A stretch of 64,000 nucleotides of DNA from Psococerastis gibbosa (taxonomy: Eukaryota; Arthropoda; Insecta; Psocodea; Psocidae), in NCBI GenBank assembly GCA_963971405.1, contig OZ020492.1, positions 19,374,204-19,438,203 on the forward strand. The letters are read 5' to 3'. Below the pieces are notes generated by a model. The model saw only the letters and a program-made list of their open reading frames with translations. It did no database searches and was not told the DNA's origin. This document shows, in pieces, positions 1-59,695 of the stretch. The position numbers and the translations under genes are program-made. Position 1 is the stretch's first letter, and each line of letters starts with the position of its first letter.

Positions 1-24
1 GCCATATTTCTACTCGACTTACTG

Positions 25-129
25 GTCTGAACACTGACTGTGCAAGTATAAACTGCATTGTTATACTGCTGTTTAACTATTCATTTCTTACTTGACCCTT
101 GGATTGTTAGTTGCGAACTTAAAATGAAG
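25..129 (+). other. Exon 1 copy (non-coding), zinc-finger unit A
   Basis: First of seven diverged copies of an about 100-nt block ending AAG|GTATGT, a good 5' splice donor (donor GT at 130-131). No open frame is shared by the copies, so it is read as a 5'-UTR exon. In other copies the block is preceded by TTACAG; here that is ACTG. A ten-base run of G starts 40 nt into the intron (170-179). The partner coding exon would be 3224-3355. Whether the block starts at a promoter or at a splice acceptor cannot be told from sequence. Confidence 0.55.
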
Positions 130-339
130 GTATGTTCAATAGATATTGTAAATTGTGTTGTTTAGTGGAGGGGGGGGGGAGTGGGAGTGGCTGCAGGATG
201 AAGTCAAGACATGCAGAGTAATGGTATAAACGGCCTTATTTCTGATAGTTGCAGGGAGTTTACCAGGCCTTTCAATTTAAGTTTGAGTTCAAGATTTCTT
301 TTCTTTTCATTCTTATAACTGAAATTAGAGGATATGGAA

Positions 340-435
340 AAATCTGGGCTTGGCGGGATTGTAACCCACGATCTACGCCTAACCGGGGCGTCGTTTTAAC
401 CACTGGACCACAAGCCCCGACAAGTCCAGTAATCG
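340..435 (-). repeat. tRNA-Thr-like SINE fragment
   Basis: On the minus strand this has a D-arm/A-box-like TGGTCCAGTGG, a five-pair anticodon stem around a seven-base loop whose centre reads GGT (Thr), and a T-arm/B-box close to GGTTCGAATCC. It has no proper acceptor stem and position 33 is not T, so it is a tRNA-derived repeat, not a tRNA gene. Related pieces occur at 650-840, 3515-3565, 18912-18975, 32556-32610, 39545-39610, 51105-51160 and 59858-59920. Confidence 0.6.
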
Positions 436-562
436 CCAAATCCTTTATATATGCTCTAATTGACATGATTCGTGTTGCTAGACAGGTTATCACAAATACA
501 CAACCATCTAACCGAACAGGTCTGTGAGCTTACTTAATTGTATCAAAGCATTGTTTTATTCA

Positions 563-935
563 ATACATTGTAGTATTATATGGTATACATAACACTGACA
601 TTAAATTAACTTTGGTTGAAGAGGTAACCTCCTCGTTATAACCGAAATTTGAGGATATGGAAGAAACTGGACTTGGCGGGATTCGAACCCACGATCTCCG
701 CCTAACCGGGGCGTCGTCTTAACCGCTGGAACACAAGACCCGACAAGTCCAGTAATCGCCAAATGTGGTCCAGCGGTTAAGACGACGCCCCGGTTAGGCG
801 TAGATGGTGGGTCCGAATCCCGCCAAGCCCAGTTTCTTCCACATTCTTTAATTTCAGTTATAACGATAATATTACCTCTTCAACCAAAGTTAACTTAATG
901 TCAGTGTTATGTATACCATATAATACTACAATGTA
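563..935. repeat. Large palindrome of two tRNA-Thr-like repeats, head to head
   Basis: The sequence from the start (ACATTGTAGTATTATATGG) returns as its reverse complement at the end, with arms of about 170 nt and a centre near 749. Each arm carries the tRNA-Thr-like segment and an outer segment containing AACTTTGGTTGAAGAGGTAA. A single related element lies at 39530-39680. Confidence 0.85.
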
Positions 936-3223: not shown

Positions 3224-3355
3224 AGCTGCAACTCTAAGAAAATGAACAAAGATGGTGACCAGCAGAAGACTCCATCAGAAAAAGCATCTCCACTGGATTT
3301 AAGAGTGCAACCTGCAACAAGTCCTGACATAGATGCAGCGGGAACTTCTAACCAG
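3224..3355 (+). CDS. Exon 2 of zinc-finger unit A: N-terminus with degraded PLDL motif
   Basis: Bounded by TTTTAG| and CAG|GTATAC. The ATG at 3242 opens 38 codons running in frame to the donor (phase 0). The peptide begins MNKDGDQQ, has PLDLRVQP near residue 18 and ends AAGTSNQ. In the best copies the core is PLDLSMKP or PLDLTMKP, which fits the CtBP-binding consensus PxDLSxK; here R, V and Q replace the S/T, M and K positions. No finger exon follows within 5 kb, so this copy probably makes no protein. The repressor role is inferred from the motif alone. Confidence 0.6.
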
Positions 3356-9097: not shown

Positions 9098-9229
9098 AGC
9101 TGCAACTATAAGAAAATGAACAAAGATGATAACCAGCTGGAGACTCCATCAGGACACGCATCTCCACTGGATTTATGCGTGAAACTAGCAACATGTGCTG
9201 ACATAGATGCAGCGGGAACTTCTAACCAG
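9098..9229 (+). CDS. Exon 2 of zinc-finger unit B
   Basis: Acceptor GTTTTAG| and donor CAG|GTATAC. The ATG at 9116 gives 38 in-frame codons with the motif PLDLCVKL, so S/T and P of the consensus are changed. The next finger exon is at 11932. The 2.7-kb intron between them is longer than the roughly 1 kb of other units because it has taken a LINE fragment (9846-10752) and a SINE (10905-11056). The downstream acceptor is mutated, so splicing to the fingers is doubtful. Confidence 0.65.
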
Positions 9230-11931: not shown

Positions 11932-12450
11932 TGTGGAAAGAAGCCATTCACGTGTGCAATCTGCTCGAGGTCATACCAACGACGAACTACATTGAGGATT
12001 CACATGAGAGATCACACTGGTGAAAAGCCATTCCCATGTAAGAACTGCTCGAAGTCCTTCAATTTCAGCTCCGTCCTAAAAGTACATATGAGAAGCCATA
12101 CAGGAGAAAAGCCTTTCCGATGTGAGCAGTGCTCGAAGGAATTCTGTTACGACTATAACCTAAAAATACATATGAGAATCCATGCAGGAGAAAAGTCTTT
12201 CTCATGCTCGCACTGCTCGATGGCCTTCCGTCAGAACTCTAGCCTAAAACGACATATGGAAATCCATACAGGAGTAAAGCCATTCCCACGTAAGAACTGC
12301 TCGAAGGCCTTCCGTAGGAACTCTCACCTAAAAGAACATATGAGAATCCATACAGGAGAAAAGCCGTTCTCATGTGCGCACTGCTCGAAGGCCTTCCGTC
12401 ACAACTCACAACAAAAAAAACATATGGCTGCCTATTGTTATAAGAGTTGA
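11932..12450 (+). CDS. C2H2 zinc-finger exon, unit B (acceptor mutated)
   Basis: Open frame of 172 codons from TGT at 11932 to TGA at 12448-12450, with six C2H2 fingers of 28-residue period joined by HTGEKPF-type linkers. Finger 1 is CAIC..HMRDH, 2 CKNC, 3 CEQC, 4 CSHC. Finger 5 has lost its first Cys (RKNC) and the last finger ends HMAAYC in place of a second His. The base pair before the exon is GG where sister copies have AG (TTCTCGG versus TTCTCAG), so the normal acceptor is gone. An internal ATG at 11992 would give a five-finger protein without the N-terminal motif. Likely nuclear and DNA-binding if made. Confidence 0.75.
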   Translation, partial: CGKKPFTCAICSRSYQRRTTLRIHMRDHTGEKPFPCKNCSKSFNFSSVLKVHMRSHTGEKPFRCEQCSKEFCYDYNLKIHMRIHAGEKSFSCSHCSMAFRQNSSLKRHMEIHTGVKPFPRKNCSKAFRRNSHLKEHMRIHTGEKPFSCAHCSKAFRHNSQQKKHMAAYCYKS

Positions 12451-12639: not shown

Positions 12640-12945
12640 CCGCTCGTTGATAAGGGGTAACAGTGGAGGCAATGGATTTTGTCAGCAGCTAACAGTTCGT
12701 CTGTTCAGACAAAGTCAATTTATATCTGTTGTCGTTGCTGCCTTTGAGAATAACAGTAGTTTGACTATTTTTTATTTGACTATTTTATTATTTGACTATT
12801 TTAAAATAATACCGTAGTCACCAAATTTGACATATGGCAATCCATACAGGAGAAAAGCCGTTCTCATGCGCGCACTGTTTGAAGGCCTTCCGTCACAACT
12901 CTCAACTATGAAAACATATGGCAACCCATTGTAATCAGAGTTGAC
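12640..12945 (+). pseudogene. Finger-exon fragment joined to intron 2
   Basis: 12640-12830 repeats intron-2 sequence and then joins at about 12830 to the end of a finger exon (CATACAGGAGAAAAGCC...) that stops at TGA after about one finger. It looks like a product of unequal exchange or a partial duplication of the last finger just upstream. Confidence 0.7.
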
Positions 12946-15499: not shown

Positions 15500-15734
15500 A
15501 AGCTCCAATATCTATGACATCAGTTGGCGCCCCTCATCGACCAAACTTTTGCGCGGGAAATAATTTTAAAACTAGTTGTGAATTTCATTTGCTAGTTGAG
15601 CCAATTTCCAATTGAAGCCTTCTGACCACACATTAGTTCCACGGGAGGCACCAAAGGGAAATATTCAATATAGAAAATATTCCCTCACAAGACAGTTGGG
15701 TTTGGATCACTCCATATTTTTACCCAACTTACAG
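15500..15734 (+). promoter_or_regulatory. Conserved upstream block with E2F-like site
   Basis: About 230 nt directly before exon 1, strongly conserved with 27760-27991 and 41880-42115. At 15547-15560 it contains TTTTGCGCGGGAAA, which fits the E2F/DP consensus; GGCGCCCCTC lies just before it. There is no clear TATA box at a fixed distance. Promoter role is inferred from position and conservation. Confidence 0.45.
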
Positions 15735-15840
15735 GTCGGAACATTGACTGAGCGAGTGTAAACCGTATTGTTGCACACATTGTCAGTATTCGTTTCTTAG
15801 GTACTTGACCCTGGATTGTTGGTTGCGAACTCCTACTAAG
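15735..15840 (+). other. Exon 1 copy (non-coding), unit C
   Basis: Preceded by CTTACAG and ended by TACTAAG|GTATGT. A 14-base G run lies at 15883-15896, 43 nt after the donor. It should splice to 18619-18750. Confidence 0.55.
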
Positions 15841-18618: not shown

Positions 18619-18750
18619 AGCAGCGACTGTAAGAAAACGAATAAAGCTGGTGACCAGCCGGAGTCTCAATCAGAGCAAATATCTCCACTGGATTTAACTA
18701 TGAAACTTGCAACATGTGCTGACATAGAAGCAGCGGGAACTTCTAACCAG
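18619..18750 (+). pseudogene. Exon 2 of unit C, start codon lost (ACG)
   Basis: Splice sites are intact (CTTTAG| and CAG|GTAAAC) and the 38-codon frame is open with motif PLDLTMKL. The start codon, ATG in all other copies, is ACG at 18637-18639. The first in-frame ATG is inside the motif, so a functional N-terminus is unlikely. The partner finger exon at 20385 is only a stub. Confidence 0.75.
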
Positions 18751-19206: not shown

Positions 19207-19852
19207 CAGTACCGGCAAAAAAATCTTGACAAGGTGAAAAAAACACAATAAATCAGTTTTCATTGAGTTTATTTGTTATTTTATTTGTTTATTTTATTGG
19301 TGTTTATGTTTTAATTCAACAGCTGTTATGGACGGAGCCTTCAATACTTCTCGCTTTAGAAGTTCATCTGTTCGTTGGGAGGTCTTTCTAGGGGCTCCAG
19401 ACCCCTTTTTCCTGATCGGGACTTCCCCTGGTAGCAACTTTGAGGCTGTGCGTTTGAGCTGGTAAATGGTCTCCCTTGAGACTCCTAAATCACGCGCAAC
19501 AGATCTAACCGTGTCGCCCTTTTCCAGAAGTGTTAGAGCACGCGACTTTTCTTCCATTTTAAGCTTCTTATGCCCCATTGTAAATGAAATAAAACTCAGC
19601 AAACTTCCCAAATCAGAAAAAAAACTAACAACAAAAATCACCGTATTTTGTAACCTGTTTGAACAAGTACAGGTGACGCAATGAGACTGGAGTAGATGGC
19701 ATGCGCGGCCTATTGGCGCACGGACGAACTAAGCAACAGGCCAGGCGTCTTAATTCAATAGGGTGGCTATGGCAAGTAAAATCATGGCATGATGTTTGCT
19801 TGTCAGGTTTTTAATTGCCACCCAAGTGTAATAATTTTTTTTGCCGGCACTG
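19207..19852. mobile_element. Tc1-like element, internally deleted
   Basis: Ends CAGTACCGGCAAAAAAAT and ATTTTTTTTGCCGGCACTG are inverted repeats of about 18 nt, flanked on both sides by TA (19205-19206 and 19853-19854), the Tc1/mariner target duplication. At 646 bp it is too short for a full element of about 1.6 kb. It sits in intron 2 of unit C and explains why that intron is longer than its sisters. Confidence 0.85.
19294..19578 (-). pseudogene. Tc1-like transposase, N-terminal HTH only
   Basis: ATG at 19578 (minus) opens a frame with KSRALTLLEKGDTVRSVARD and LGVSRETIYQLKR, a homeodomain-like HTH of the kind that binds Tc1-type inverted repeats, followed by a basic GSGAPRKTS linker and a second HTH start. 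It ends at 19294, before any DDE residue. A longer start at 19641 exists, but MGHKKLK is the better start by family shape. It could at most make a DNA-binding fragment. Confidence 0.75.
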
Positions 19853-20384: not shown

Positions 20385-20485
20385 TGTGGAGAGAAGACAT
20401 GTACAATCAGTTCGAGGTCTTACAAACGACGAACTACTTTGAGGATTCACATGAGAGACCACACTGGTGAAAAGCGTTTCCCATA
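20385..20485 (+). pseudogene. Zinc-finger exon stub, unit C
   Basis: It starts TGT GGA GAG AAG as in intact copies, but the first finger has a deletion (CTISSRS in place of a CxxC), and the homology ends at KRFPY, where the sequence passes into exon-1 upstream sequence. The truncated product would have no complete finger. Confidence 0.75.
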
Positions 20486-20495
20486 TAACTTACAG

Positions 20496-20600
20496 GTCTG
20501 AACACTGACTGTGCAAGTGTAAACTGCATTGTTATACTGCTGTTTAACTATTCATTTCTTACTTGACCCTTGGATTGTTAGTTGCGAACTTAAAATGAAG
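20496..20600 (+). other. Exon 1 copy, recombined onto the stub
   Basis: Preceded by ATAACTTACAG and ended by AAAATGAAG|GTATGT, with a 13-base G run at 20641-20653. Its upstream promoter block is missing because the join at about 20485 removes it. It resembles the copies at 25 and 57383 most. No exon 2 follows before the pipsqueak gene. Confidence 0.55.
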
Positions 20601-21034: not shown

Positions 21035-21370
21035 GCCAACAAATCATTGCCAACTTCTTCGCCGTCCGACAATAGCGGAGTGTCCTCCGGTATTGCCACC
21101 TACGTGCAGCTACAGAAACCCGAATGGAAGAAGTATAAGCAGTACACGCGCAACGAAATTCTCAGAGCCATCGACGCAGTCAGAACCGGGATGAGTGCTC
21201 ACGTGGCGGCCCGCATGTTTGGCGTCCCGCTCCGTACGCTGTACGGCAAAGTCAAAAAGCTGGGCATCACGACGAGCAAGCCGTTCAAAAAGGGCTCCAA
21301 CTGGTGCAACGGGCCAGTTCTTCCCTACCCTATGGCCATGTTTCCGTGTAAACAGGATAATGAGGACCCG
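21035..21370 (+). CDS. Pipsqueak-type HTH transcription factor, DNA-binding exon
   Basis: Exon of 336 nt, phase 0 at both ends, acceptor CTGCAG| and donor CCCG|GTGAGT. It encodes a Ser-rich start, then a psq-type helix-turn-helix at about residues 26-75: YTRNEILRAIDAVRTGMSAH, then VAARMFGVPLRTLYGKVKKL and a GITTS end. The pattern AIDAV..GMS...AA..FGVP.RTLY.KVKK is that of the pipsqueak family, which in insects often follows a BTB domain. No BTB exon is seen upstream in the window, so the 5' part probably lies beyond it, across the zinc-finger units. I cannot decide which family member it is. Confidence 0.85.
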
Positions 21371-27991: not shown

Positions 27992-28098
27992 GTCTATACA
28001 TGGACTGAGCAAGTGTAAACCATATTGTTTCACAAATTGTCACTATTCGTTTCTTAGGTACTTGACCCTTCGATTGTTGGTTGCGAACTCCTATTAAG
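27992..28098 (+). other. Exon 1 copy (non-coding), unit D
   Basis: Preceded by CAACTTACAG, ended by TATTAAG|GTATGT; ten-base G run at 28139-28148. Candidate partners are the exon 2 copies at 29011 and 32268. Confidence 0.55.
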
Positions 28099-28850: not shown

Positions 28851-29010
28851 TTTTATGTAATCAGTCCCAGAGGCAGAGGTCCGCCGTTTTTGATCATTTA
28901 TTCCTGCATTTAATTGAAACCGGTTTTATGTAGAAACATTTACAGTTCGTGCCCCATTATATCCTTGACTTGTTGTATAGAAGCTAACCCATTATATTGC
29001 ATCGTTTTAG

Positions 29011-30940: not shown

Positions 30941-30958
30941 TGTACATACATACATTTT

Positions 30959-32267: not shown

Positions 32268-32399
32268 AGCAGCGACTATAAGAAAATGAATAAAGATGGT
32301 GACCAGCACGAGACACCATCAGAACAAACATCTCCACTGGATTTAACCATGAAACCTGCAACATATGCTGACATAGAAGCAGCGGGAACTTCTAACCAG
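32268..32399 (+). CDS. Exon 2 of zinc-finger unit D
   Basis: Acceptor GTTTTAG|, ATG at 32286, 38 codons, donor CAG|GTATCC. The peptide begins MNKDGDQHETPSEQ, has PLDLTMKP and ends AAGTSNQ, close to the family consensus. Intron 2 is about 0.97 kb and leads to 33372 in frame (phase 0). The motif fits CtBP-type corepressor docking, which would make the gene a repressor. This is inference from a seven-residue motif. Confidence 0.75.
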
Positions 32400-35580: not shown

Positions 35581-35631
35581 TTGAACTGAATTTATTATTG
35601 ATTACATATTGAACCTTTTTTTTATTTACAA

Positions 35632-38464
35632 ATGGGTAGTTCAGGATTTAATTTATTTTATGCCAATGTCAGAAGTATGAGACAAAATTTTGACCAAGTC
35701 AAATTATACTTAGAACATGCTAATATTTCTTATGACGTTATTATATTGTCTGAATCATGGATACATGAGTCCGAATTAAAATTGTTTCAATTACATGATT
35801 TTACGGGTATTATTCAAATGAGACATAATCGGCGTTCGGGAGGGATTGTTGTTTATGTTCGCAATGGGATTAAATTTACAAATACTAATTATCATGATGA
35901 AAATCATGAAAGTATATTATTGTCAATGAAAATTGATATGAAGAGATTAAATTTACTTTGCACTTATAGAAATTGTAAGGCTCCATTACAAAGTTATATT
36001 GATTTCTTGAAAAAGGAAATATTAATATGATAATTGGAGATATTAATCTAGACATTATTAAAACTAATACCGAAACTGTCAATTACCTAAATTTTATGGA
36101 TATGGCTGGATTAATTTAAAAAATTAATTTTCCAACTGGAATTGCTACTGGTTCTGAGACTTGTATTGACCACTGTTTTTCTAAGCAAAGTGTGGGCCAG
36201 ATAAAATTGAAAAAACTAAATATTGCCTTGAGTGATCATAACTGTATTTCAATTAAATTGAATGATTATAACACTGGGAATAATAAAGAGCAAACATACA
36301 GTTTTTGTGATCTGAGGGTTGTAAGAACCGAACTATTTAACACTGATTGGTCTGTTGTAATTAGCAATAATGATGTAAATATTATATATGACAAGATAGT
36401 ACAGCTTATTAAAAAAGCAAAAAATGAAGCAACTGAAAATGTGAGAATTAATTCAAAAAATAGAAGAAGAAAAGAATGGATAAATCAGGCTGTGATTGAT
36501 AAATGCACACGAAGAAACTTGTTGTATAAGCTGAATCGAAAATATCCTTCCTGTAACTTTATAAAAAATGAGCTAGAATTATCACAATTTGAGCTGAAAA
36601 ATGAAATCAAACAGGCAAAACGTAATTTTTATAGAAATAAATAGGCCTATAGGAATGCAAAAAATGTTAAGGAATATTGGTCAATTATAAAAACGAAAGT
36701 AAAAAATGGGAAAACCCCTATAAGTGTTTTGGATTCAAATGGAGACTCCATTGATGTTTCTCAAAATGGTGTAAAAATAGCAAATTTATATAATGAATAT
36801 TTTGTAAATATTGCTCCAAATATTTTATTAGAAAATAACATAGATGCAAATGCCCGCCTCATGAAGAGGTGAATCACTCTATGTATTTTCCACAAGTAAC
36901 TATGCTAGAAGTTGAAAAGGCCATTGATTCAATAAAATCTAAAAAGTCCTCAGGATTTGACAATATTTCTAGTGAATTAATTAAGTTTTGCAAGGTCGAG
37001 TTACTAAGGCCATTGTACCACCTGTGTTATGTTTCTCTTAGTATAGGTATCTTTCCTGAAGTTTTGAAGCTCAGCTGTGTGTTACCTCTATATAAAGAAG
37101 GAAGCAAGTCGATAATTGGAAACTATAGACCATTGTACTTAAATTCTTCAATTGGCAAAGTAATTGAGGTTGTTCAAAAAACAATAATGCATTATTTAGC
37201 AACAGTAAATTTTTTTGCATACCGCCCAAAATCTGGTACCGATAAAGTTATTTACAATTACTTGACTTGATAATGGCAAAAAAGTTGCTGCTTGCATTGA
37301 TTTAAGCAAGTGTTTCGATGTTATTAGTAGAGATCTACTGATAAAAATAATTGCGGCTGCAGGCATAAGAGGCAAACCATTAATGTGGATTAAATCCTAT
37401 ATTTATTAAATAGAGTACAGATTACAAATGTTCATGACCAGTATATAAGTGATAAAAGACCCCTAAAATATGGAATTTTGCAGGGTTCTGGGATGGCTCC
37501 ATTATTTTTCCTTATATTTATTAATGGGTTAAGCAACTTGAAATTAAAAAATAAGAGTCATTTTTTAAGTTTCGCGGATGATTGTGCAATAATTTGTTCT
37601 GCTTCAAATGCATTATTGCATTGCTACATTGCTACTTGCTTGATTCTATAAAAAGAGTCATGAAGTGGATTACAAAACACCAGCTTATAATAAATTGGAA
37701 AAAAACTAACATAATCGAATATTTTTATAATTATTCACTTTATAGAGTGTCTAGTATTTCGAATGCGAATGAAATTAAAAGCCATTTGTTTAATTGTTAT
37801 CATTCAAACATGACCAATGTAATGACAAATTGTTTCTGCCCAAGTATTCTAATCGTTAACAACATCGAATATCTGGGAATAGTAATTGATAGCCATCTTT
37901 CTTGGGATCAACATATTAATAACGTATATAAAAAGCTAAGGCTTATAAATTTACTTTTTTACAACCTGAGTAAATTCATGACTACAAAAGACATGGTACC
38001 TATTTATTGTGCTTTTTATCAATCAATATTACAATATGGAATCTGTTTTTTTTGGGGGGGGGGGGGGTGCTGGAGTTACAAAAACTAAAAAAATTGTTAC
38101 TTGCCAAAAATTTGCCATGAGAATGCTCAATAAAACAGGGTACAATGTTACTACGAGGATAATTTTTAAGGAGTTAGGAATTTTGTCATTTGAACTTTTG
38201 TACAAGAAAATTTTACTAACAACGGTTGTAAGTAACTTGAGTAACTTTCAAGGTGATAGAATTTCTGCTAATAACATAAGCACGAGGCAAACAGGACGTG
38301 GTTTCCTTACGGTTCCTAATTACAAATTAACACACAGCAGAAATTCTGTCAACTATAGAGGTTTGAGTTACTATAATGATATGATCAGGGCCGGATACCT
38401 AGAAAATATTACATTGTCTGCAACTAAGAACTATATTTTAAGTCTACTCACTGATACAGATTAA
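35632..38464 (+). pseudogene. Jockey/CR1-like non-LTR retrotransposon, ORF2 relic
   Basis: Endonuclease N-terminus at 35632-36030 (FYANVRSMRQNFDQV; IILSESWIHESE, the catalytic Asn and Glu motifs), linker 36192-36644, RT fingers/palm 36869-37270 (KSSGFDNISSELIKF; LPLYKEGSKSIIGNYRPLYL), palm centre with LSFADDCAIICSASN near 37565-37615, and thumb to 38464 (NIEYLGIVIDSHLSWD). The frame breaks at least at 36031, 36645, 37271 and 38060, where a long G run lies in the coding sequence. There is no RNase H domain, unlike the R1/I pieces elsewhere here. Confidence 0.85.
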
Positions 38465-41749: not shown

Positions 41750-42115
41750 CGATTGTATACTCACCACGAATGGTTTGAAGTGTCAGTTTCAATTATTAAA
41801 TATATTCCCAATAATTTACAAGATACTTAGGCTAATGTTGTTTAAATTTACAAAAATGACAGTGGTCATCCTCTCTCAAGCTCCAATATCTATGACATCA
41901 GTTGGCGCCCCTCATCGACCAAACTTTTGCGCGGGAAACAATTTTTAAATTTGTGAAGTTCATTTGTTATGTGAGCCAATTTCCAATTGAAGCCTTCTGA
42001 CGCTGACCGCACATTAATTTCACGGGAGGCACCATAGGGAAATATTCACGATAGTAAATATTCCCTCACAAAACAGTTGAGTTTGGCTCGCTCCATATTT
42101 TTAACCAACTTACAG
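41750..42115 (+). promoter_or_regulatory. Conserved upstream block with E2F-like site, unit E
   Basis: TTTTGCGCGGGAAA at 41925-41938 inside the block shared with 15500 and 27641. It directly precedes exon 1. Confidence 0.45.
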
Positions 42116-42214
42116 GCCGGAATATTGACTAAGCGAGTGTAAACTGTATTGTTACACAAATTTTCACTATTCATTTCTTAGGTACCTGGCCCTCGGTTGC
42201 GAACTCCAATTAAG
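42116..42214 (+). other. Exon 1 copy (non-coding), unit E
   Basis: Preceded by CAACTTACAG, ended by CAATTAAG|GTATGT. A 12-base G run at 42250-42261 follows. No exon 2 is found before the next exon 1, so unit E lacks its coding start. Confidence 0.5.
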
Positions 42215-43639: not shown

Positions 43640-43860
43640 AAGGACACTATTTTATGCATGTGACAACCCATGCAAAAGGAAAGCCTTTCTCATGTAAGAT
43701 CTGCTTGAAGTCCTTCGCTTGCAGCTCCTACCTAAAAGCACATAATATAGTGAGAGTTCATCCCTCAAGCCTTCGCTTGTACCATTTGCTTGAAGTCATT
43801 CAGCCGTGATCTAAATAAGCATAATATGAAATTTAAAAAAATTGTCCGTGGTTTTTTCCC
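43640..43860 (+). pseudogene. Degenerate terminal zinc fingers, unit E
   Basis: One readable finger CKICLKSFACSSYLKAH after a degraded HAKGKPFS linker, then a frame break, then FAC-type remnants (TICLKSFSRDLNKH in another frame) to about 43830. A sister remnant is 53190-53380. These fingers differ from those of the main exons and seem older. Confidence 0.65.
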
Positions 43861-45894: not shown

Positions 45895-46160
45895 TGTGGA
45901 GAGAAGACATGTACAATAAGCTCGAGGTCTTACAAATAACGAACTACTTTGAGGATTCACATGAGAGACCACACTGGTGAAAAGCGTTTTCCATGTAAGA
46001 ACTGCTCGAAGTCAGAAGTTCTTCAATTTCAGCTCCGAACTAAAAGGACATATTAGAATCCATACAGGAGAAAAGCCTTTCTCATGTGGGCAGTACTCGA
46101 AGGCCTTCCGTCACAACTCTCTAATAAAAATACATATGACAACCCTGTACTATTTGCCCG
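45895..46160 (+). pseudogene. Zinc-finger exon with early stop
   Basis: Begins TGT GGA GAG AAG, but the first finger lacks its second Cys (ACATGTACAATAAGC) and a TAA stop occurs 15 codons in. A second break lies near 46014 (extra AGAAGT). The end passes into the remnant type seen at 43800 (CTGTACTATTTGCCCGAAGT). No functional product. Confidence 0.8.
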
Positions 46161-47347
46161 AAGTCATTCAGCCGTTATCTAAATGGCAATGGACTAGGGA
46201 CTTATGGGCTTATTAATAGGCCTGGGTCCATGAAACGTCCTTAATAAGCTATTACAGTAATAAGGGGGAGATAACGTATATGTATCAAGCCCGTGAGCCA
46301 TGATACTGTACAGGCATCTTGCATAATACATACAAGTAGAAAAAAACTCCTTGACAAGCCTAGGCGCAATGTCAATAAATTATATGTCAATAACAATGTT
46401 GCTATAGAAAACTGTAAAGGAAAAAAAAGTTAATAGTCTATTTGCCATTTATGTATCGAATAGGCTATATGATACTCCCGATAGGGAATAAATAATCGTA
46501 TGCATGTTACCGTACATTGGAGATCTAAGAGTGTATGCTCACCACGAATGGTTTGGAGTGTCGGTTTAATTAATTAAATATATTCCCAATAATTTACATG
46601 ATACCTAATGTTGCTGTTAATTTGCAAAAATGTCTGTGGCCATCCTCCCAAGCTCTAATAAATATGGCATCGTCGATCAAACTTACGCGGGAAATAATTT
46701 TAAAATTTGTGAAGTTCATTTACTATGTGGCCCATTTTCCAATTGGAGCCTTCTGACAATACATTAGTTCCGCGGGAAGCACCAAAGGGAAACGATAGAA
46801 AATATTGCCTCACAAGCAAAGAACTTCTAATATAATATACTAGAAGTTCTATTGGCGCTAGTGTCGCACGGTCATTTGATTACCGCCATTTTTGAGCTCA
46901 CAGCAGGTGGTATTCTGTATTTTATTTAAAAACTAAAAGAAAATACCTTTTTGTTGCCCTGTTGTTATTGCCTATAATTAAATTTTGCATTTGCTACATT
47001 TTAAATTTCATAGGGTACATTACAGTTGCTGTTTTGGATGATTGAACTTTTTTGATGCTATTGTTTATTTTTAATCCACATAATTTTCAGCTATTTTGGG
47101 AAAGCATATTAATTATAATAATGAAGTTAGACAGTCTAAATATTTAATAAAGACCCATTTTTTTTTGTTTTAAAAATTTTGGGTTAGGTACCATAAGATA
47201 ACTATAGTTTCATTTGGCGCGAAAATGTGAGGCCAAAAGATGGCGGATCTTCTATTGGTCCCCACTTCCGCAAGCAAATCATATGGAGGTGTAGGGGCTT
47301 GCTCACAAGGCAGTTTGGCTCGCTCCATATTTTTTCCAAACTTACAG
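46161..47347 (+). promoter_or_regulatory. Upstream flank of unit F
   Basis: 46180-46290 is the upstream block; 46502-46560 and 46590-46830 are the promoter-proximal block, with a weaker E2F-like TTACGCGGGAAA at 46683-46694. 46825-47290 is a unique insert between the promoter block and exon 1, containing TTTGGCGCGAAA at about 47213, another E2F-like word. The intact gene thus has a different proximal region from its sisters. Confidence 0.4.
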
Positions 47348-47450
47348 GTGTGAACATTGACTGAGCAAGTGTAAACCGTATTGTAACACACATTGTCACT
47401 ATTCATTTCTTACCTGACCCTTGCATTATTGGTTGCGAACTACTATTAAG
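47348..47450 (+). other. Exon 1 (non-coding) of the intact unit F gene
   Basis: Preceded by AACTTACAG and ended by TATTAAG|GTATGT. The 19-base G run at 47494-47512, 44 nt downstream, is the longest of the seven. It splices by model to 50843. Confidence 0.6.
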
Positions 47451-49599
47451 GTATGTACAATCGAAATTGTAAATTGCGTTGTTTAAGGGGGACGGGGGGG
47501 GGGGGGGGGGGGTGGCAGCAGAATGATGTCAGGACATGCACAGTAGTGGCACCCGACACAAGTACTTATTAGGTGACTTACTGCGGTGATGAGGTGAGGA
47601 GACTAAGAGCCCATCTTTTCCTTCTTATGCCTTTTCTTCATTAAAAGAAAATTATATTTTTGTAGTAGATAGAGATAATGAGATATTTCATAGTAAATAA
47701 TTTCGCTACGGATAAATTTAGGAACACCAAGGGGGGGGGGGGGGGGCGGTCCATCCGACGCCCCTCTGGCTATGGCCCCGACTCCGAAGCACTGGATTAA
47801 TAGATGGCATTTCATATTATAGAACGGGCAGACATTTCCACGCATTAATAATGCCACGGCACGCAATGAAAAAATATTGTTTTGCAGAAAACCAAATACT
47901 TTTGTTGGAAAGCAACCTAATCGGGTTAGTTACTCTACTTAACGCCTAAATCTAACCTGAAGTTTGAAATTATCGACGGAATGGTTCCACAGAAAAATTA
48001 TTTCTTAGTCATTTTTCATGAAAATTGAGTTATTTTTATTTTTTTACCCCCAAAAGCAAACCATCAAGGGGCAAGTGACCCACCCACATTTTGTTAACAT
48101 TAAGAATGACTACAATATATGTGAATTTAAAAGAAATCGTTGCTGCCGTTTTGGAGGAATAACTTTTTTAGACGTTTCTTTGGAGTTTATTGAGAACAAA
48201 ACCCCCCAAATCGTGTTCGTCCAAAATATCAAAATCATTCCCGAGGCATGACTTTTGGGAACCTATATACCAAATCTCATCAAAATCGACAGAGTAGTTT
48301 GCCTGTAAATCGATGAACAGACAGAGCGACAGATAGACATTTCGTAAAAGCCACTTTTTTGGGTTCCAGGGACCTCAAATCGTGTAAATCCGTTGAAATC
48401 TCGGAATCGAAAATTCCGACCATCACAAAGTTATCTTTATACAGTTATACTACTTATAAATTGAAAAGCAATTAGATAAAATGTCACCCTGGCCTAGCTC
48501 AATATATATATATCATGGAGTGACCTTGATATTATATGTTGTGAGGCACGCTGGGAGTTAACAATGCAGTTCGTCAAATCGGGCATTAGTTATGGTAATA
48601 AACGTCGCTGATTGGGTACATAATGCAAACAATAACATTATTGTGAGCACATTAGAATCCGCCTTTAGACAAAGTAAATACTAGATAAAAAACATTCCGA
48701 GTCTACTTAAAATGTATTTATTTGTGTTCTAACGAGACCAAAGTTGAGGCCGAGACCACCGGGGTTCTTATCAGTTCCCAAAGTAGTTGTTCTTGGTCTC
48801 GGTCCTGGTCTCGAAAAATGACCTAGTCTCGGTCTTGAATGACTCGAAAATCTCGGCTCCAAGGTGTACAATCGTTATTTCAATAAAATGGTAGACGTTC
48901 AAACATTCCTTGATGACAAGGTTGTCATACTTTGCATTATAGTGAAATAGTACAAAAATTACTTATTTATTGAAATGTTGGGTGGAACTTTCCAAGTTTT
49001 TTTTGGGCAATATTGCAATTAGGTACACTTTTAAACATGATTGTAGGGATTTCGTTGTTAGTCAGGGTCAATGGAAAAAAATTCCCATACGCCGGGAGGG
49101 GGGGGGGCAGCAATTTACACAATGAGTGGCTCGTGTTGCAAATTAAATAATGGGGTTGGAGTGAGTTTCCAACGGCTTGTCACCATAGGAAATGGGTTCA
49201 TTTGGCCCATATTGAGAGTATTTTCTGTTTCCTTTAAACTAGAGTGTGCCATTGGGATCAACTATATGTAGCCTACTAGCTGTGTGTATACCTACAATAC
49301 ACACCCGTACGACAGCACTGTCAGTTTCTTTAAGACTGTGCTATTTATTATTGCAGCGTCAAAATGCACCAGGATACATAAAATGAGCAAACTTGACAAC
49401 TTACCAAGGTGACAAAAACTATTGTGGCCTATAATATGAACTAAATCGTAGTAGAACTATGGTGTAAGCTACACTTATTAAACAGCCTGAAAGTGAGGGT
49501 CCATGCCCGTCAGCAATGACCGCCATAGAATCATGTTACTTAACACCATGGGAACGGGTGGTGTCAAAAATTATGCTTCGTCCTTCTAGTCTAGGCCGT
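47451..49599 (+). repeat. Intron 1 of unit F, proximal part
   Basis: 47690-48460 is repeat Q with a 15-base G run near 47731-47745 and the GGGACCTCAAATCGTGTAAA end. 48480-48960 is the shared intron-1 block. 49060-49270 resembles 58270-58450. No gene. Confidence 0.5.
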
Positions 49600-49714
49600 A
49601 CAGAATGTGCAAGAGAAGGCTTTATAACCCTGACTCCGCTAGGTAGGCTTTGTAAAAGAACAAAAAGTCAATAATGATTTATTTATTTTTTTAATCATCT
49701 TACATTGCAAGAGG
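49600..49714 (+). repeat. SINE tail in intron 1, unit F
   Basis: tRNA-Glu SINE 3' end (CTCCGCTAGGTAGGCTTTGTA), orthologous to 31880-31965 and 59190-59250. Confidence 0.6.
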
Positions 49715-49724
49715 CAGCGCGCGA

Positions 49725-50544
49725 GCCAAGTTCCTACACACCCCCGACATCATATCTAAACATATCAAACCAAATTTTGCTGGTTTTATAGTCACGGCCT
49801 TGTTAATAAATTTGAAAAATTTCATCTCTCTACCTAATCAGGGGGCTTAGATCTGATACCCCTAAAAGTCAAAAATGGTGGACATATTGACACAAATGTT
49901 TGGAGAGAACTACTGATCGACATGAGTTACAACTGGTTTATTACCTGAGCTATGGGCAAAATTGTAACAAATTCATATTTTTTCTAATTCATTATTGGCC
50001 GCAGTTTACCCAATGAAGTAGGTAGATTTCTTTTCATAATTTTTTTATTGGTTTGGGACCATGCTCTATAAGTATAGAATGTTTCATAGATTTCTGTCAA
50101 GCGGTTTTCTCTGGGAGTTTCTTACTTTTGCCCATTTTTTAATCTGTTGGTGTAGAGCTCGCGTAGCACCCAGCTTAACCAAATTTTGCAGGGTTTCTAG
50201 TCATGTTAACATATGTGCACAATTTCATCTCTCTACCTAATCAGGGGATTGAGATCTGACACCCCCGCGAAATGTCAAAAATGGCGGAACAAATTGACAC
50301 AAATGTTTGAAGAGAGCCACTGATCGTAGAAAAATGAAATGGTAAGAGACTAAAAAGAAAATTATGACAAGAATCCTAGCTGGTTTATTACCTGAACTAT
50401 GGGCAAAATTGTAACAAATTCATTATTGTGTTCCGGGGGATTCCGGGGGTTTCCCGTAAGTAGACCTACCGTACTGCAAAAAATTATGAGATCCCTACCA
50501 AAACACTTCGAGTAACAAAAACTAACAATTGGTAGGAACTTGGC
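49725..50544. mobile_element. TIR element with internal direct repeat
   Basis: Inverted 13-base ends GCCAAGTTCCTAC (49725-49737) and GTAGGAACTTGGC (50532-50544). Inside, about 280 nt occur twice in direct order (49755-49985 and 50185-50430; word TCTCTCTACCTAATCAGGGG). Sister introns lack the whole insert (flanks GCAAGAGG / ATAAATCTAATTTGAAAC). No transposase frame. Superfamily not identified. Confidence 0.7.
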
Positions 50545-50842
50545 TTGTTTTACACGAAGTGCTTTGGTTGGGATAAATCTAATTTGAAACTAAACTCCGG
50601 GAAGTGATCCCATAATGCCGACTCTGAAGCCCTGACATACCTGAAAGTCAACAGTATATTCCCACACAACACCTTTCAACGGATGAGTCACTTGAATCAG
50701 TCCCAGAGGCAGAGGTTTTTGATAATCTATTCCTGCATTTGAATGAAACCGGTTTTATTAAGAAACATTTACTGTTCGTGCCCCATTAACTACTTATTGA
50801 CTCGTTATAAATAGCATAACCTAATATATTGCATCGTTTTAG

Positions 50843-50974
50843 AGCTGCAACTATAAGAAAATGAATAAAGATAGTGACCAGCAGGGGACTCCATCAAAAC
50901 AAGCATCTTCACTGGATTTAACCATAAAACCTCCATTAAGTGCTGAAATAGATGCAGAGGGTCCTTCTAAACAG
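50843..50974 (+). CDS. Exon 2 of the intact unit F zinc-finger gene
   Basis: Acceptor CGTTTTAG|, ATG at 50861, 38 codons, donor ACAG|GTATAC, phase 0. The peptide begins MNKDSDQQGTPSKQ, has SLDLTIKP (Pro of the motif changed to Ser) and ends EGPSKQ. It is followed after 1.17 kb by the complete finger exon. In CtBP-binding motifs the D-L core matters most, so binding is possible but weaker than in PLDLSMKP. The protein would be about 239 residues in total. Confidence 0.75.
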
Positions 50975-52147
50975 GTATACCCAAATTTAACGACACACAC
51001 GTGAAAACTCATATTTGCACTGACAGAAATTGCACTAACAGAAATAGTGGTAATATTTCAATTAAAGCATGTAATAAATGTGTTACAATTAGATACATTA
51101 TTAGTGATCCGGATAGGCGTTGACCGCGGATTCGAATCTTCCCAAGTTCAGTTTTTTCTTGCAGGAAGCAAAATTGGAAGGCATAAATGAGGAGCAACCT
51201 TTCAAAACGGCACTAATCCATTTTCGTAAAATGTTCAGGAAACACGAAAAACATAATTATTTCGGCTTTATTATAACGCTAATATAAGATTTTAGCCCTT
51301 CAGAAAACTTAGTTAAAATGTTTTTGTTTTTGTTTTGATTAGCAATCCTGATTCAACTCATCTTCGAGATGGAAAATCGATGATATTTTTAATTTTCATG
51401 GATTTGTGAAATTTTGAAAGTTTGCTCCTCAAATAATGTTATACGATGCATTCAAGCTTGGATGTGCCCTTGCTGTCAGTTAAAAGCTTTATCAGGCCAG
51501 TTTATGCATAGCCATAACACAATATTACTGCACTATAGCCTTTTTCATACAACGCGTACGATAAGCTCCAAAGGGCATAGCGTTATGATTATTTAAATAT
51601 ATGTAATATATATAACATTATATAAAATTATGTATATATGACTATGGGAGGCGTTTTATTATTATGTTACTGAGTTTAACCATGGATTATGTCAGCTGTC
51701 AGTTCTTCTGTTCAGACGAATTTTATTTATTTCTCTTATCGTTGCCACTTAAGTATAACAGTATAGTTTGACTATTTTACTTTATACCTTTTTGTACTTG
51801 TTTTCTTGATTTTATAATTTATAAGAATAATATACATTTTTTTTCTTATTTTCAGTAAATCCCTAACAAATCATAATATTATAAGTAAACATGAACTTAA
51901 TTCCACAACATTTCCACAGATTTTTAATAATGACAGCTGTTTCTGTGTAACACCATCTAATGCCATAAACGATAATACCGTAGTCACCAAATTTTCAATA
52001 ATAGTCCTATAAATGCCCTTAATAAAGAATGCAGTTAATACCACATCAAATCACTTTTAAGAACGCTCAAAATTTCGCTATGTAATATTTAAGAATATAA
52101 TGTACCATAGTCAATTAAAATACTACAATATTGATTTCTCTTCTCAG
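50975..52147 (+). other. Intron 2 of unit F
   Basis: Carries the shared tRNA-Thr-like SINE piece at 51105-51160 and the intron-2 end with TACCGTAGTCACCAAATTTT. Acceptor TCTTCTCAG|. No gene. Confidence 0.6.
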
Positions 52148-52753
52148 TGTGGAGAAAAGTCTTTCGAGTGTGCAATCTGCTCGAGGTCTTACAAACAACG
52201 ATCTACTTTGAGGATTCACATGAGGGACCACACTGGTGAAAAGCGTTTCCCATGTAAGAACTGCTCGAAGTCCTTCAATTGCAGATCTCACCTAAAACGA
52301 CATAGGAGAATACATACAGGAGATAAGCCTTCCCCATGTGCACACTGCTCGAAGGCCTTCCGTGACAGCTCTGACCTAAAAAAACATATGAGAATCCATA
52401 CAGGAGAAAAGCCTTTCACATGTGCCCACTGCTCGAAGGCCTTCCGCCACAACTTTCATCTACAAAGACATAGGAGAATCCACACAGGAGAAAAGCCTTC
52501 CCCATGTGCACACTGCTCGAAAGCCTTCCGTGACAGCTCTGACCTAAAAAAACATATGAGAATCCATACAGGAGAAAAGCCTTTCACATGTGCCCACTGC
52601 TCGAAGGCCTTCCGTGACAGCTCTAACCTAAAAACGCATATGAGAATCCATACGGGAGAAAAGCCTTTCTCATGTGCGCACTGCTCGAAGGCCTTCCGTC
52701 TCAACATTAAATTAAAAAGACATATGGCGATGACCCATTGTACTAACAGTTGA
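52148..52753 (+). CDS. C2H2 zinc-finger exon of the intact unit F gene (seven fingers)
   Basis: 201 codons from TGT after CTCAG| to TGA, no breaks. Seven C2H2 fingers at a 28-residue period: 1 CAIC..HMRDH, 2 CKNC..HRRIH, 3 CAHC..HMRIH, 4 CAHC..HRRIH, 5 CAHC..HMRIH, 6 CAHC..HMRIH, 7 CAHC..HMAMTH, with TGEKPF-type linkers. Helix contact residues (-1,2,3,6) read Q-S-T-I, C-S-H-R, D-S-D-K, H-F-H-R, D-S-D-K, D-S-N-T, L-I-K-R. Fingers 3 and 5 are nearly identical through a 168-nt duplication. A nuclear sequence-specific DNA-binding protein by family. AATAAA at 52886-52891 may be its poly(A) signal. Confidence 0.9.
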   Translation, partial: CGEKSFECAICSRSYKQRSTLRIHMRDHTGEKRFPCKNCSKSFNCRSHLKRHRRIHTGDKPSPCAHCSKAFRDSSDLKKHMRIHTGEKPFTCAHCSKAFRHNFHLQRHRRIHTGEKPSPCAHCSKAFRDSSDLKKHMRIHTGEKPFTCAHCSKAFRDSSNLKTHMRIHTGEKPFSCAHCSKAFRLNIKLKRHMAMTHCTNS

Positions 52754-53189
52754 CTTGATGAAAATATTACATAAAAACATATAAAAATATATTATCGTCA
52801 TGACCGGTTTCGACAGATTGTCATTCTCAAGAGATGTAGCTTAAAATTAAAATAAGTAATTGCAAGATATAAACCTCACGTTATGAATAAAAAGTCATTA
52901 CATACATACGATCCTGCTGCCAAGTCCAACCAAGGAGACGAATTGCTGATAAACTTTATCATTTAATAGGGGCTTATTCCTATTTATAGCTGAATTTATT
53001 TCAATGGTTTCAATATTATTAAGCAATTTTCCTTTTTTGGCTATGTGAAATATTTTGAAATCTTCAAAGGTACCGTACATGTCCTGTGTTGTTCATGTGT
53101 AATATTTTTAAAATTCAACTCTTATTATAATGTTTTCGAAATATCACAAAGTTACAAAGGACACTATTTTTGTTTTCCAATTTTTTATG
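52754..53189 (+). other. 3' flank of unit F
   Basis: Shared with 33960-34060, includes GACCGGTTTCGACAGATTGT and the possible poly(A) signal. 53055-53160 matches the arm at 43523-43660. No gene. Confidence 0.5.
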
Positions 53190-53380
53190 CATGCGACAAC
53201 CCACACGAAAGGAAAGCCTTCCTCATGTTAGAAGTTCTTGAAGTCCTTTGTTTGCCACTCATACCTAAAAGCACATATATTGTGAGGGTTCATCCCTCGA
53301 GCCATTCACCTGTACTATTTGCTCGAAGTCATTCAGCCGTGATCTAAATAAGCATAGTATGAAATATAAAAAATATGTCT
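53190..53380 (+). pseudogene. Degenerate terminal zinc fingers, unit F flank
   Basis: Degraded copy of 43640-43860: a linker HTKGKPS-like, a broken CxxC, then in another frame FTCTICSKSFSRDLNKH to a stop near 53382. Old remnant, not expressed as a finger protein. Confidence 0.6.
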
Positions 53381-55399: not shown

Positions 55400-56699
55400 T
55401 GTCTGAGCCCTTCGATGTTATCAGCGGGGGGGGGGGGGGTTCGCTTGCCCCTTGATAGGTTGCTTCTGGGGGTAAAAAATAAAAATAACTAAATTTTAAT
55501 GAAAAATGACTAAAAAATAATTTTTCTGCGAAACCTTTCTATCGATGATTTCTACCTTCAGGTATGTTTTAGGTGTTAAATTGAGTAACGAAACCGGACA
55601 GGTTGCTTTCCCAAAAAAGTATTTGTTTTTGTACAAAAAATGTTTTTTATTAAAAATGATAGAAAATTCACGCTCTAATGCATTGCGTGCCCTGCCAGTA
55701 TTGCTGTGTGGTAATTAATGTGTTGGTCTCACCTATCTAGAATTTAACTCACCTCCTGTGACGTCAGGTGGACTACCCCCCCCCCCCCCCCGAGGTATCG
55801 GAAATTTAACCATAGGAAAATTATTTACCATGAAATTACTCATTTTCTCTATCTACTAATTTTGATAAATTGGAAAGCATGTTCGAGTAAATTCGGACCG
55901 GTTCTTTCTCATGTTATTTGTGATGGTATCTGTCCAATTTGTCACCACGGTTTTTCACAAGAACCAATCTTCAGTTATTTTTCAAAAAGCATTTTGCAAT
56001 AATTTATATTATTATTCGATTTAAAATTCGATTTCTTCGATTTGGTGCTTAGTTCAAAATACAAAATAAAAACCCGGAGTATCCTGTCACGGTCGCCATG
56101 AAGTATGGTTCACGTAATTAAGCACTCGATATTTGCATTTCCATGTTCACTGTATTGTACTGACACTTCCGCTACTCTCACAACAGTCCTCTCCACCGTC
56201 CTCTCGCACCACGCAGGGTACTAACTTATATCCATTCAGCACTAACCTACTTTCAGTTCATATACAATACATGCCACACCTATAATATACCAAAGGAAGC
56301 TTGCAGTTACATGAAGAAGGCCTACCGCTTCTAAATCCCCTGAAGATCCTGGCTCTCCTGAGGGAGATAGGCCTCAGGAGATACTTTGTCGTAGGGGGAA
56401 CAATAGGCCCAATGGGCTTAAGTGCACACAGGTATCACCTGTACTCCAATAACATAAAAAAATAAAAACTATACTAATTTTATTTGTTATTATTCAATAT
56501 GTATTTGTCCCAACTATCAATTCACTTCTTTAGGAGAGGGAACATTTTAACCCTAGGACAATTATTTCCGAAGGAACTAATGCAATACCCTTCCTAATAG
56601 ATATGTATGTACGAGTTCACATGTACTGGTTCTTTTACAAAAAAGCTTTCGTGTGAAAAATAAATTATCGCTCTCTACCTATGTTGCCACTTAATATAA
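55400..56699 (+). repeat. Repeat Q (minus), unique part, LINE 3' end
   Basis: 55440-55860 is repeat Q and poly-G repeat on the minus strand with a 16-base C run near 55777-55792. 56290-56460 matches the LINE 3' end at 41440-41620 (CCTGGCTCTCCTGAGGGAGA). 55900-56280 is unassigned. Confidence 0.5.
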
Positions 56700-57382
56700 C
56701 TATATAAGTACAGGTTTAAAAATAGAAATTAGAAACGGTAAATCAAGGAGAGATGAGTCCAGTTTGCCAATGACCAAAAATTCGTACGGAAACAATAAAA
56801 ATAATGTCTGAAATCCATGGGGCCGTTGGCAATGGACTTCGGACCTATATACTATACTATATTCAGGCCTGGGTCCATAACAAGAACTAAAATAGCAATA
56901 ATAGTAATAAGGGGAAGATGACGTATACTTAGCAGGCCCGTGAGTCATGCTACAGCTACAGGTATTTTGTAAAATACATAGAAGTTGAAGAAACTCCATG
57001 ACAATTAAGCCTAGGGGCAATGTCAATTACAAAACAATAGCAATGTGGCTGAAGAAAACTGTAAAGGAATAAAGTGTTAATAAATTATATGCCGATTTAT
57101 GTGTCAAGTAGGCTATATGATGCTCCCGACATTAAGCTCCATTAAGAACTTGGAGTGAATACTCACCACGAATGGTTAGGAGTGGCGGTTTAATTTATTA
57201 AGGTTCCAATAATTTACAAGATACTTAATGTTGCTGTTAACTTGCAAAATTGCCAAGGTCCAAGCATCAATATCTATGACACCAGTTGGCATCCCTCGCC
57301 GACCAAACCTTTACGCGGGAAATAATTTTAAAATTTGTAAAGATCATTTGCTATGTGAGCCATATTTCTACTCAACTTACAG
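56700..57382 (+). promoter_or_regulatory. Upstream flank of unit G with E2F-like site
   Basis: 56750-56900 is the upstream block. 57170-57360 is the promoter block with TTACGCGGGAAA at 57311-57322, one base off the better copies. A segment present in sisters between this block and exon 1 is missing. Confidence 0.4.
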
Positions 57383-57487
57383 GTCTGAACACTGACTGTG
57401 CAAGTGTAAACTGCATTGTTATACTGCTGTTTTACTATTCATTTCTTACCTGACCCTTGCATTGTTAGTTGCGAACTTAAATTTAAG
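57383..57487 (+). other. Exon 1 copy (non-coding), unit G
   Basis: Preceded by CAACTTACAG and ended by ATTTAAG|GTATGT, ten-base G run at 57528-57537. It should splice to 59564. Confidence 0.55.
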
Positions 57488-59563
57488 GTATGTACAATAG
57501 AAATTTTAAATTGTGTTGTAAAGGGCAGGGGGGGGGGAGTGAAATGAAATGGGAGTGGCTGCAGGATGAAGTCAGGACATGCAGAGTAATGGTATAAACG
57601 GCCTTATCCCTGATAGTTGCAGGCAGTTTACCAGGCCTTTTAATTTAAGTTTGAGTTGAAGATTTAGGGCCCTTCTTTTCATTTTATGCTTTTCTTCTTA
57701 AAATTTCATTTTTTGGAGCAATAAAACATGCTGCAAATTTTGTGAAAATAATGAAAATAAATAAATAAAATGTCACCCTAGCTCACCATATAACATGATC
57801 TTGATATTATATGTTGTGGGGCACACTGGGAGTTAAAAAGGCATTTCGTCAAATCGGGCATTAATTATAGCAATGAATCGCTGATTGGGTACAAGAAGCG
57901 AACAATAACATTTTTGTGAGCTCATTACAATCCGCCTTAAGACTAAGTAAGTTCTTACTATGTAATATACTGACTTTACTTAAAATGTTTGTATGCATGT
58001 ATGTTTGTATTTATTAGTGTTCTAACGACACCGAGGCCGAGATTGAGCCCACCAGGTTTCTTATCAATACCCAAAGTCTAGGTCTCGGGCTTGGTCTCAA
58101 AAAATGACCGCGTCTCGGTCTCGAATTACTCGAAAATCTGGGCTCCAAAGTGTAGATTCATTTTATCAATAAGTGAATAAGATGGTGGACGTGGGGTTAT
58201 CATTCTTTGATGATAAGGTTGTTATATTTTGCATTATAGTGAAATACTAGTAGTACAAAAATTACCCAATCACCCAAAGGGGGGAGGGGCAATTTACACA
58301 ATCTGTATCCCGTGTTCCAAATTACATAATGAGGTTGGAGTGAGTTTTAGACGCTTGTCACCATGGGAAATGGGTTCGTTTCGGCCATATTGAGAATATT
58401 TTCGGTTTCGTTTAAACTTGAGTATGCCATTGGGATCTATTATCTACCATGCATACCTACAATACACACCCGTAAGACGTACTACACTTTCAGTCAGTTT
58501 CTTTAAGACTGTGCGATATATTGCAATTTCAGAAGGCACCAGGATGCATAAAATGAGCAAACTTGACAACTAACCAAGTAGGCAAACAATTGCAGCCTAT
58601 ACCATGAACTACTTCAGTGGTAGGTTTATTCGTCGGTAAAATCTCAACAGTACTGCTTGAAAAATGCGTGAAACCTCAAACATTTGGGCTTATTTATCAA
58701 TTTTTTTCTCCGGGGGCGACCTCTGGGCCCCCCTTTCACCAGGATTCGACATGCGCAAAACTTCACTTATTGTGGCCCATTTACCAATTTCATCTCTCCG
58801 GGGGAGAACCCCGGGCCCCCATTCTCTAGGGTTCTACATGCGTATTGGTACCTATACTAAACTTGGAAGTTGAATGCATAGGTTCCAATGTTAGGCAAAG
58901 TTCTCCCGCCACCTAAGAGAAAAATGTCTAAGTCCGCATTCAGGACAGGTTCAGCAATTTTGCCGTCATGCATACATATATGTATAGAGAATGAGATGAC
59001 TAGGTCGCTGTGTGTTTCAGAACTTGTAAAAATATTTCACGAGACTAAAAACATTTGTTTTAAATATTGATGTGCACTTTTTTTTTGTTTTAATGAACAT
59101 GAATAGCTTAGTGTACACATAATATATACTAAAAAAAGAAAATTTAAAATAATAAAAAAGTCATATAATTTACTAGGCAGACTTCAGAAGAGAAACTCCG
59201 CTAGGTTTGCTTAGTAATAGTACAAAAAGTTAATATTTATTTATTTAATAATTGCCTTACATTGCAAGAGGATTCGTACAATCTTAGGAAGTATAAATCT
59301 AATTTGAACCGAAACGCCGTGATGAAATGAATCCAAAATGCTGAATCTGAAGCCCTTACATAAGTCAATAGTGTACTCCCACACAATACGTTTCAATGGA
59401 TGGATGAGTCCCTGGAATCAGTCACAGAGGCAGAGGTTTTTGTCAATCTATTCCTGCATTAAATGAAATAAACCGGTTTTATTAAGAAACATTTACTGTT
59501 CATGCACCATTACCTACTTGACTTGTTATAAACAGTCTAACCTAATATATTGCATCGTTTTAG
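57488..59563 (+). repeat. Intron 1 of unit G
   Basis: 57770-58260 is the shared intron block, 58612-59060 repeat P, 59190-59250 the SINE tail, 59330-59563 the exon-2-proximal part with AAACCGGTTTTATTAAGAAA. No gene. Confidence 0.55.
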
Positions 59564-59695
59564 AGCTGCAACTATAAGAAAATGAACAAAGATGATGACC
59601 AGCCGGAGACTCCATCAGGACACGCATCTCCACTGGATTTAAGCATGAAACCTGCAACAAATGCTGACAAAGATGCTGCGGGAACTTCTAACCAG
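59564..59695 (+). CDS. Exon 2 of zinc-finger unit G with canonical PLDLSMKP
   Basis: Acceptor GTTTTAG|, ATG at 59582, 38 codons, donor CAG|GTATAC. The peptide begins MNKDDDQPETPSGHA and carries PLDLSMKP, an exact fit to the CtBP-docking consensus PxDLSxK. No finger exon follows in the remaining 4.3 kb; the window may end before it, or it may be lost, because the intron-2 similarity stops near 60080 and other repeats follow. Confidence 0.7.

Follow-up and report, generated by a model that had tools for sequence, protein, structure and literature searches.

The 64,000-nucleotide stretch analysed here (the window; C20:19374204-19438203, where C20 is contig OZ020492.1 of the 409-Mb, 68-contig assembly GCA_963971405.1 of Psococerastis gibbosa) contains part of what is probably a lineage-expanded tandem family of C2H2 zinc-finger genes, each composed of a leader exon (exon 1), a 44-codon exon that typically bears one PLDL(T/S)xK motif (exon 2) and a single multi-finger exon. 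The three exons recur in the same order and orientation with conserved splice sites and phases, and among the matches listed exon 1 occurs only near these genes. Outside one decayed block the PLDL stretch is conserved, the DNA-contact positions of the fingers are highly variable, and a gene for the corepressor CtBP is present in the genome.

Seven copies of exon 1, eight of exon 2 and five finger exons had been counted in a first-pass annotation of the window, and all were recovered with conserved splice sites and phase-0 junctions. The exon-1 copies (1-129, 15712-15840, 20488-20600, 27971-28098, 42093-42214, 47325-47450 and 57359-57487, all on the plus strand) share the donor AAG/GTATGT, the slash marking the exon boundary, and measure 99-107 bases when counted from an acceptor-like TTACAG, which is present in six of the seven and reads TTACTG in the first. 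This first copy, the left edge of which is not fixed, ends AAAATGAAG/GTATGT; from the copy at 20488-20600 the next exon 1 is reached without any exon 2 found between, and the copy at 27971-28098 belongs to the most complete unit. Because stops close all three frames of each of the seven copies, exon 1 looks like a non-coding leader, which may be a first or an internal exon; the copies ending at 129 and 20600 carry a terminal ATGAAG that could add Met-Lys in frame. A DNA search with exon 1 listed 11 matches, all of them on C20 and near these genes; it does not recover every known copy, the one at window position 1 being missed. Weaker exon-1 matches lie upstream in other subfamilies.

Exon 2 is delimited as TTTAG/AGC...CAG/GTA and is in phase 0. 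Seven of its copies are on the plus strand, at 3224-3355 (PLDLR), 9098-9229 (PLDLC), 18619-18750 (PLDLT, with ACG replacing ATG), 29011-29142 (PLDLT), 32268-32399 (PLDLT), 50843-50974 (SLDLT) and 59564-59695 (PLDLS), and one is inverted, at 30428-30559 on the minus strand (PLDLT). The copies at 29011 and 30428 occupy the left and the right (inverted) arm, respectively, of a 2.35-kb palindrome (28611-30959) with arms 95.8% alike, and downstream of the copy at 59564 no finger exon was found up to the window end, the nearest one listed being 41.6 kb away. The phase given in the first-pass annotation was correct, but its length of 38 codons applies only when counted from the ATG; from the TTTAG acceptor the exon comprises 132 bases, or 44 codons. 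Its recurring PLDLS/T exon likewise holds as a repeated design, but PxDL[ST] is present in only five of the eight window copies and is missing from a whole block of 12 copies elsewhere on the contig.

The window finger exons, all on the plus strand, begin CTCAG/TGTGGAGA in phase 0, as had been claimed, although several are decayed. In the exon at 11932-12450 the acceptor AG is changed to GG (CTCGG); that at 20385-20486 is truncated and continues into an exon-1 copy at about 20487; that at 33372-33932 has 5 strict C2H2 matches with the last finger out of frame; that at 45895-46153 is degenerate, with a stop after 14 codons; and that at 52148-52753 encodes 7 fingers in a frame open to its stop. 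Judged strictly, only two of the window's units look complete, 27971-33932 and 47325-52753, the latter with SLDLT. The tandem turnover proposed earlier is supported. Stray finger-coding fragments, some with stops, were observed at 12816-12941, 43654-43743 and 53187-53340 on the plus strand, downstream of or between the finger exons.

The open frame of exon 2 exceeds chance, since it is free of stops in all 11 ungapped copies of the main cluster while the other five frames are stopped in 7 to 11 of the 11. This set omits the inverted copy, the copy at 19327300 (in-frame indels) and the copy at 19471441, which has two stops immediately ahead of its Met; in a wider set of 15 copies, one carries a stop in the exon-2 frame. 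Alignment of the 13 plus-strand copies of the main cluster gave 3 gap events within the exon, all multiples of three, and 11 and 15 gap events in its two equal-sized flanks. The conservation of other reading frames within the units is uninformative, because recent duplicates are all alike.

Beyond the window, two exon-2 queries were searched against the assembly and yielded 94 matches at E-values up to 0.001 (150 of 153 candidates scored) and 127 matches at E-values up to 0.01 (150 of 158 candidates scored), every one of them on C20 or on a second contig, C3. The 53 C20 rows of the larger search correspond to 49 exons, all of which were read (a 20-residue fragment at 19116730 was left out), and these merge at 300 bases into 43 loci. 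For the fingers, 36 merged C20 exons were used, taken from a search listing (150 of 2442 candidates scored) and, for five of them, from direct reading. Family sites lie on C20 at 14.9, 17.8, 19.11-19.23 and 19.33-19.48 Mb on the plus strand and at 19.87-20.1 Mb mostly on the minus strand. Telomere repeats (TTAGG) were seen at three of the five contig ends examined, namely both ends of C3 and one of C20.

The possibility, named in the first-pass annotation, that exon 2 is confined to a mobile element with no relation to fingers was examined and did not hold: 42 of the 43 loci have their nearest listed finger exon in the same orientation and no more than 10 kb away, the exception being the inverted palindrome arm. 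When only the downstream side is considered, 37 of the 43 have a listed same-strand finger exon within 10 kb, and a same-strand exon 2 lies within 8 kb upstream of 31 of the 36 finger exons. The copies at 17.81 and 20.068 Mb are alike in both exon 2 and finger exon, so the two exons were copied together. A link between the two exons is also favoured by a modest correlation of exon-2 with finger distances (Mantel r 0.24, p 0.03, 19 readable pairs) and by a fused 168-codon frame at 14.895 Mb that takes in both exon 2 and fingers. A dispersed mobile element carrying exon 2 is likewise unsupported, the 127 listed matches falling as 53 on C20 and 74 on C3. Proximity to fingers applies to C20; on C3, an array that spans about 30 kb (45.704-45.734 Mb; C3:45704774-45734145) was seen without them. 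This array accounts for all 74 listed C3 matches save a lone one at 45659428, and repeats an exon-2 piece with its 5' intron at periods that include 565 and 2940 bases, with higher-order periodicity. Over the 5 kb that were read (45729601-45734600) no finger was found, and most copies have CCGTTTT instead of the donor. The array reads as a satellite derived from exon 2.

Across C20 the GT donor of exon 2 is kept in 48 of the 49 copies, and the frame is open over at least 38 codons up to the donor in all 49. Met stands at the usual start in 42 of the 45 single-motif copies, and all 4 multi-motif copies likewise have one at their start. PxDL[ST]x[KR] is the CtBP-docking consensus, and this feature is conserved among the C20 copies: PxDL[ST] is found in 28 of the 49, or in 28 of the 37 outside the block at 19.207-19.230 Mb. 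In these 37, PLDL has the lowest entropy of 35 four-residue stretches (0.39, against a mean of 1.10), and Lys occupies motif position 7 in 32. The pattern reflects either constraint in most of the family with release in one branch, or shared descent. At 19.11-19.20 Mb the PLDLT motif is multiplied in frame in four copies, three of which have two motifs each and the fourth five, the five-motif copy being a 66-base repeat. A run of exon-2 copies was also noted at C20:19218166-19222885, where five lie inside 1.5 kb and the motif now reads LLDF, LLNY and similar.

Variability of the fingers was estimated from 80 fingers of 13 C20 finger exons. They were picked by a C2H2 pattern, which in itself fixes Cys and His, and the fingers of one array are not independent of each other. 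Entropy was highest at positions -1, 3, 6 and 1 (3.34, 3.11, 3.05 and 2.95 bits, respectively), followed by 2.80 bits at position 2, with one non-contact position at 2.81 bits. For CtBP, a match on C3 to a fly sequence extends over 80 residues at 93%. Binding of PLDLS motifs by CtBP is described in the excerpt of PMC9907507 consulted. Under the proposed mechanism, exons 1, 2 and 3 would be spliced to yield one predicted protein, its PLDL(T/S)xK motif would dock in the CtBP cleft, and the fingers of each paralogue would select a different DNA site, at which CtBP-bound enzymes would repress. That these targets are mobile elements is more speculative, and would explain the turnover.

Several observations weigh against this explanation. 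The block at 19.207-19.230 Mb has PxDL[ST] in none of its 12 exon-2 copies, and PLDL is there the least conserved stretch, yet the fingers of the block are open; when all 49 copies are taken together, PLDL drops to 12th place among the 35 four-residue stretches. Selection on the whole exon is not discernible from the ratio of nonsynonymous to synonymous substitution rates (dN/dS, omega): estimates of 1.10 (11 copies) and 0.90 (23 copies) are indistinguishable from 1 (log likelihoods of -559.57 vs -559.68 and -1101.23 vs -1101.38, respectively), and pooled counts give 1.3-1.4. No same-strand exon 2 was found within 8 kb upstream of 5 of the 36 finger exons, the correlation between exon-2 and finger distances is weak, many units lack one part, and many copies are decayed. 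The joining of exons 1, 2 and 3 we infer from position and phase. The fused frame at 14.895 Mb could be due to chance (about one in six by a rough estimate); its interpretation as a spliced copy was rejected, and it is no proof of splicing, because it still contains the intron start. A search for a processed copy of the predicted junction between exon 2 and fingers gave no match at up to 3 mismatches, although a diverged copy could escape it. The binding of CtBP, too, is deduced from a motif known from the literature.

An unlikely alternative is that the finger genes are real but exon 2 only travels with them: non-coding or untranslated and prone to form satellites, it would be carried along in each tandem duplication and owe its open frame to recent copying. 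This reading would account for the exon-wide dN/dS near 1, for the palindrome and the multi-copy runs (five copies in 1.5 kb), for the loss of the motif from an entire block, and for the exon-2 piece turned satellite over about 30 kb of C3, where the donors are mostly lost in the 5 kb read. It fits poorly with the distribution of gaps over the 13 plus-strand copies, whose flanks together hold 26 events and whose exon holds 3, each of them in frame, with the remaining five frames being mostly closed, with a donor retained in 48 of 49 copies across subfamilies, with PLDL as the most conserved stretch of 37 copies and with the in-frame amplification of the motif. Decay in the window suggests a different reading, an old family reduced mostly to pseudogenes here and devoid of present repressor function: the acceptor or the frame is broken in three of the five window finger exons, and of the only two units that look complete one has SLDLT. 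We regard this as improbable, given that the units at 19.339-19.344 and 19.350-19.355 Mb, a short way upstream of the window, keep exon 1 with its GT donor, the ATG, PLDLT, the splice sites of exon 2 and finger exon, and 5 or 10 fingers, and that all 12 finger exons sampled in other subfamilies are open over 135-299 codons.

We give hardly any credence to the notion that the modules serve as alternative 3' cassettes within a single large BTB/psq-type gene, similar to lola, and are spliced from shared upstream exons. A well-formed psq-domain (HTH_psq) exon does lie between finger units on the same strand (window 21035-21370, plus strand), but it is not repeated with them, its only other match being at C14:5270417-5270752 (86% identity), and most units in or near the window have an exon 1 of their own. 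Cassettes of this kind would share a strand and all follow a single common 5' exon, whereas copies of the family occupy either strand at distances of up to 5 Mb, with minus-strand copies at 19.87-20.1 Mb and plus-strand copies at 14.9 and 17.8 Mb. The tandem family with its own motif exon is the explanation that we favour.

Other features of the window and the genome were recorded alongside. The psq exon is followed by an exon rich in RD repeats (window 22958-23476, plus strand). tRNA-like sequences inside repeats (345-417 and 668-740, minus strand) are probably tRNA-derived short interspersed nuclear elements; a transposase-like helix-turn-helix frame lies at 19294-19728 on the minus strand, frames resembling long interspersed nuclear elements (LINEs) were recognized by eye at 35602-38464 on the plus strand, and a LINE frame of the genome was taken, also by eye, for Jockey-like. 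An origin of intron 2 from finger-coding DNA is not claimed: 7 of 19 introns exceed all 200 shuffles of their own sequence and the rest do not, the fused 14.895-Mb copy being omitted from this test. A second, larger finger cluster on contig C15 (28.9-31.2 Mb) was treated as another family, because P[LVI][DN]L[STR] was not found in six frames of 9.5 kb (two genes read) and because these two genes have an acidic N-terminus, SEVDVKV(E/Q)EEES. A pattern search for relatives on viral contigs returned 89 matches, none of which was confirmed.

Single zinc-finger factors that recruit CtBP include Kruppel, Snail and ZEB. With these and with Teashirt, the present genes have in common a PxDLS-type motif combined with C2H2 fingers; those are single conserved developmental genes, whereas here the motif occurs in a tandem family, on an exon that is itself duplicated. 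The claim in the first-pass annotation that the design uses neither KRAB nor ZAD, the latter a zinc-binding domain, finds support in exon 2, which has no Pfam match at E-values up to 1 (3 copies scanned). The genome has 22 matches to zf-AD (PF07776), none on C20; it has no match to the KRAB model PF01352, but this model is equally silent in all 14 control genomes. As in the ZAD-ZNF genes (PMC7655104), C2H2 genes with a module that is N-terminal, here by prediction, have expanded within an insect lineage.

The other published families are compared on the basis of excerpts of the papers cited. The KRAB domain of tetrapod KRAB-ZNF proteins recruits KAP1/TRIM28 (PMC10547256), and the present genes resemble these in joining a repressor-type module to a multi-finger exon, in their tandem clusters and in their turnover. 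FiNZ-ZNF genes of cyprinid fish carry a 28-amino-acid N-terminal sequence on a single exon upstream of the fingers and, with about 700 copies in zebrafish, are clustered, lineage-restricted, under positive selection and linked to the repression of mobile elements (PMC10547256). Clustering and the short N-terminal exon upstream of the finger exon, the latter assigned here by position and phase, are common to both; the animal group (fish vs arthropod), the sequence and the length are different, and FiNZ is Glu-rich with a cofactor not known according to the excerpt of PMC10547256, whereas the PxDL(T/S)xK exon points to CtBP. The ZF271-like/APEZ families of Hemiptera are large tandem C2H2 families with pseudogenes and varied arrays and without KRAB (PMC6444547); for insect C2H2 expansions the same excerpt reports finger arrays as the only domain and no direct KAP-1 orthologue in insects, and raises the question of alternative interaction partners. 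Our family is likewise a large tandem insect C2H2 family with pseudogenes and varied arrays; here a motif-bearing exon 2, without a known domain, precedes the finger exon and would be spliced to it. Full-text literature searching returned no title or abstract opening that names a tandem PLDLS/T zinc-finger family; animal annotation databases lay outside this search, and automatic names are possible.

The family seems to be a counterpart of the KRAB, ZAD and FiNZ zinc-finger families that evolved independently. A role in genome defence, suggested by the parallel with KRAB and FiNZ families, is the part of our interpretation with the least support. That the genes form an independently evolved, KRAB-like genome-defence repertoire, in which a CtBP-docking linear motif sits on its own exon and its valency is tuned by exon duplication or by in-frame minisatellite growth (up to five PLDLT), is put forward tentatively, at somewhat less than even chances. 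A family that carries a CtBP-type motif on an exon of its own would provide a concrete and testable answer to the question of the partner of expanded insect C2H2 families, and would show that the layout of KRAB, ZAD and FiNZ genes can be built with a short linear motif in place of a folded domain. The exon-2 copies with an amplified motif would constitute a natural dosage series.

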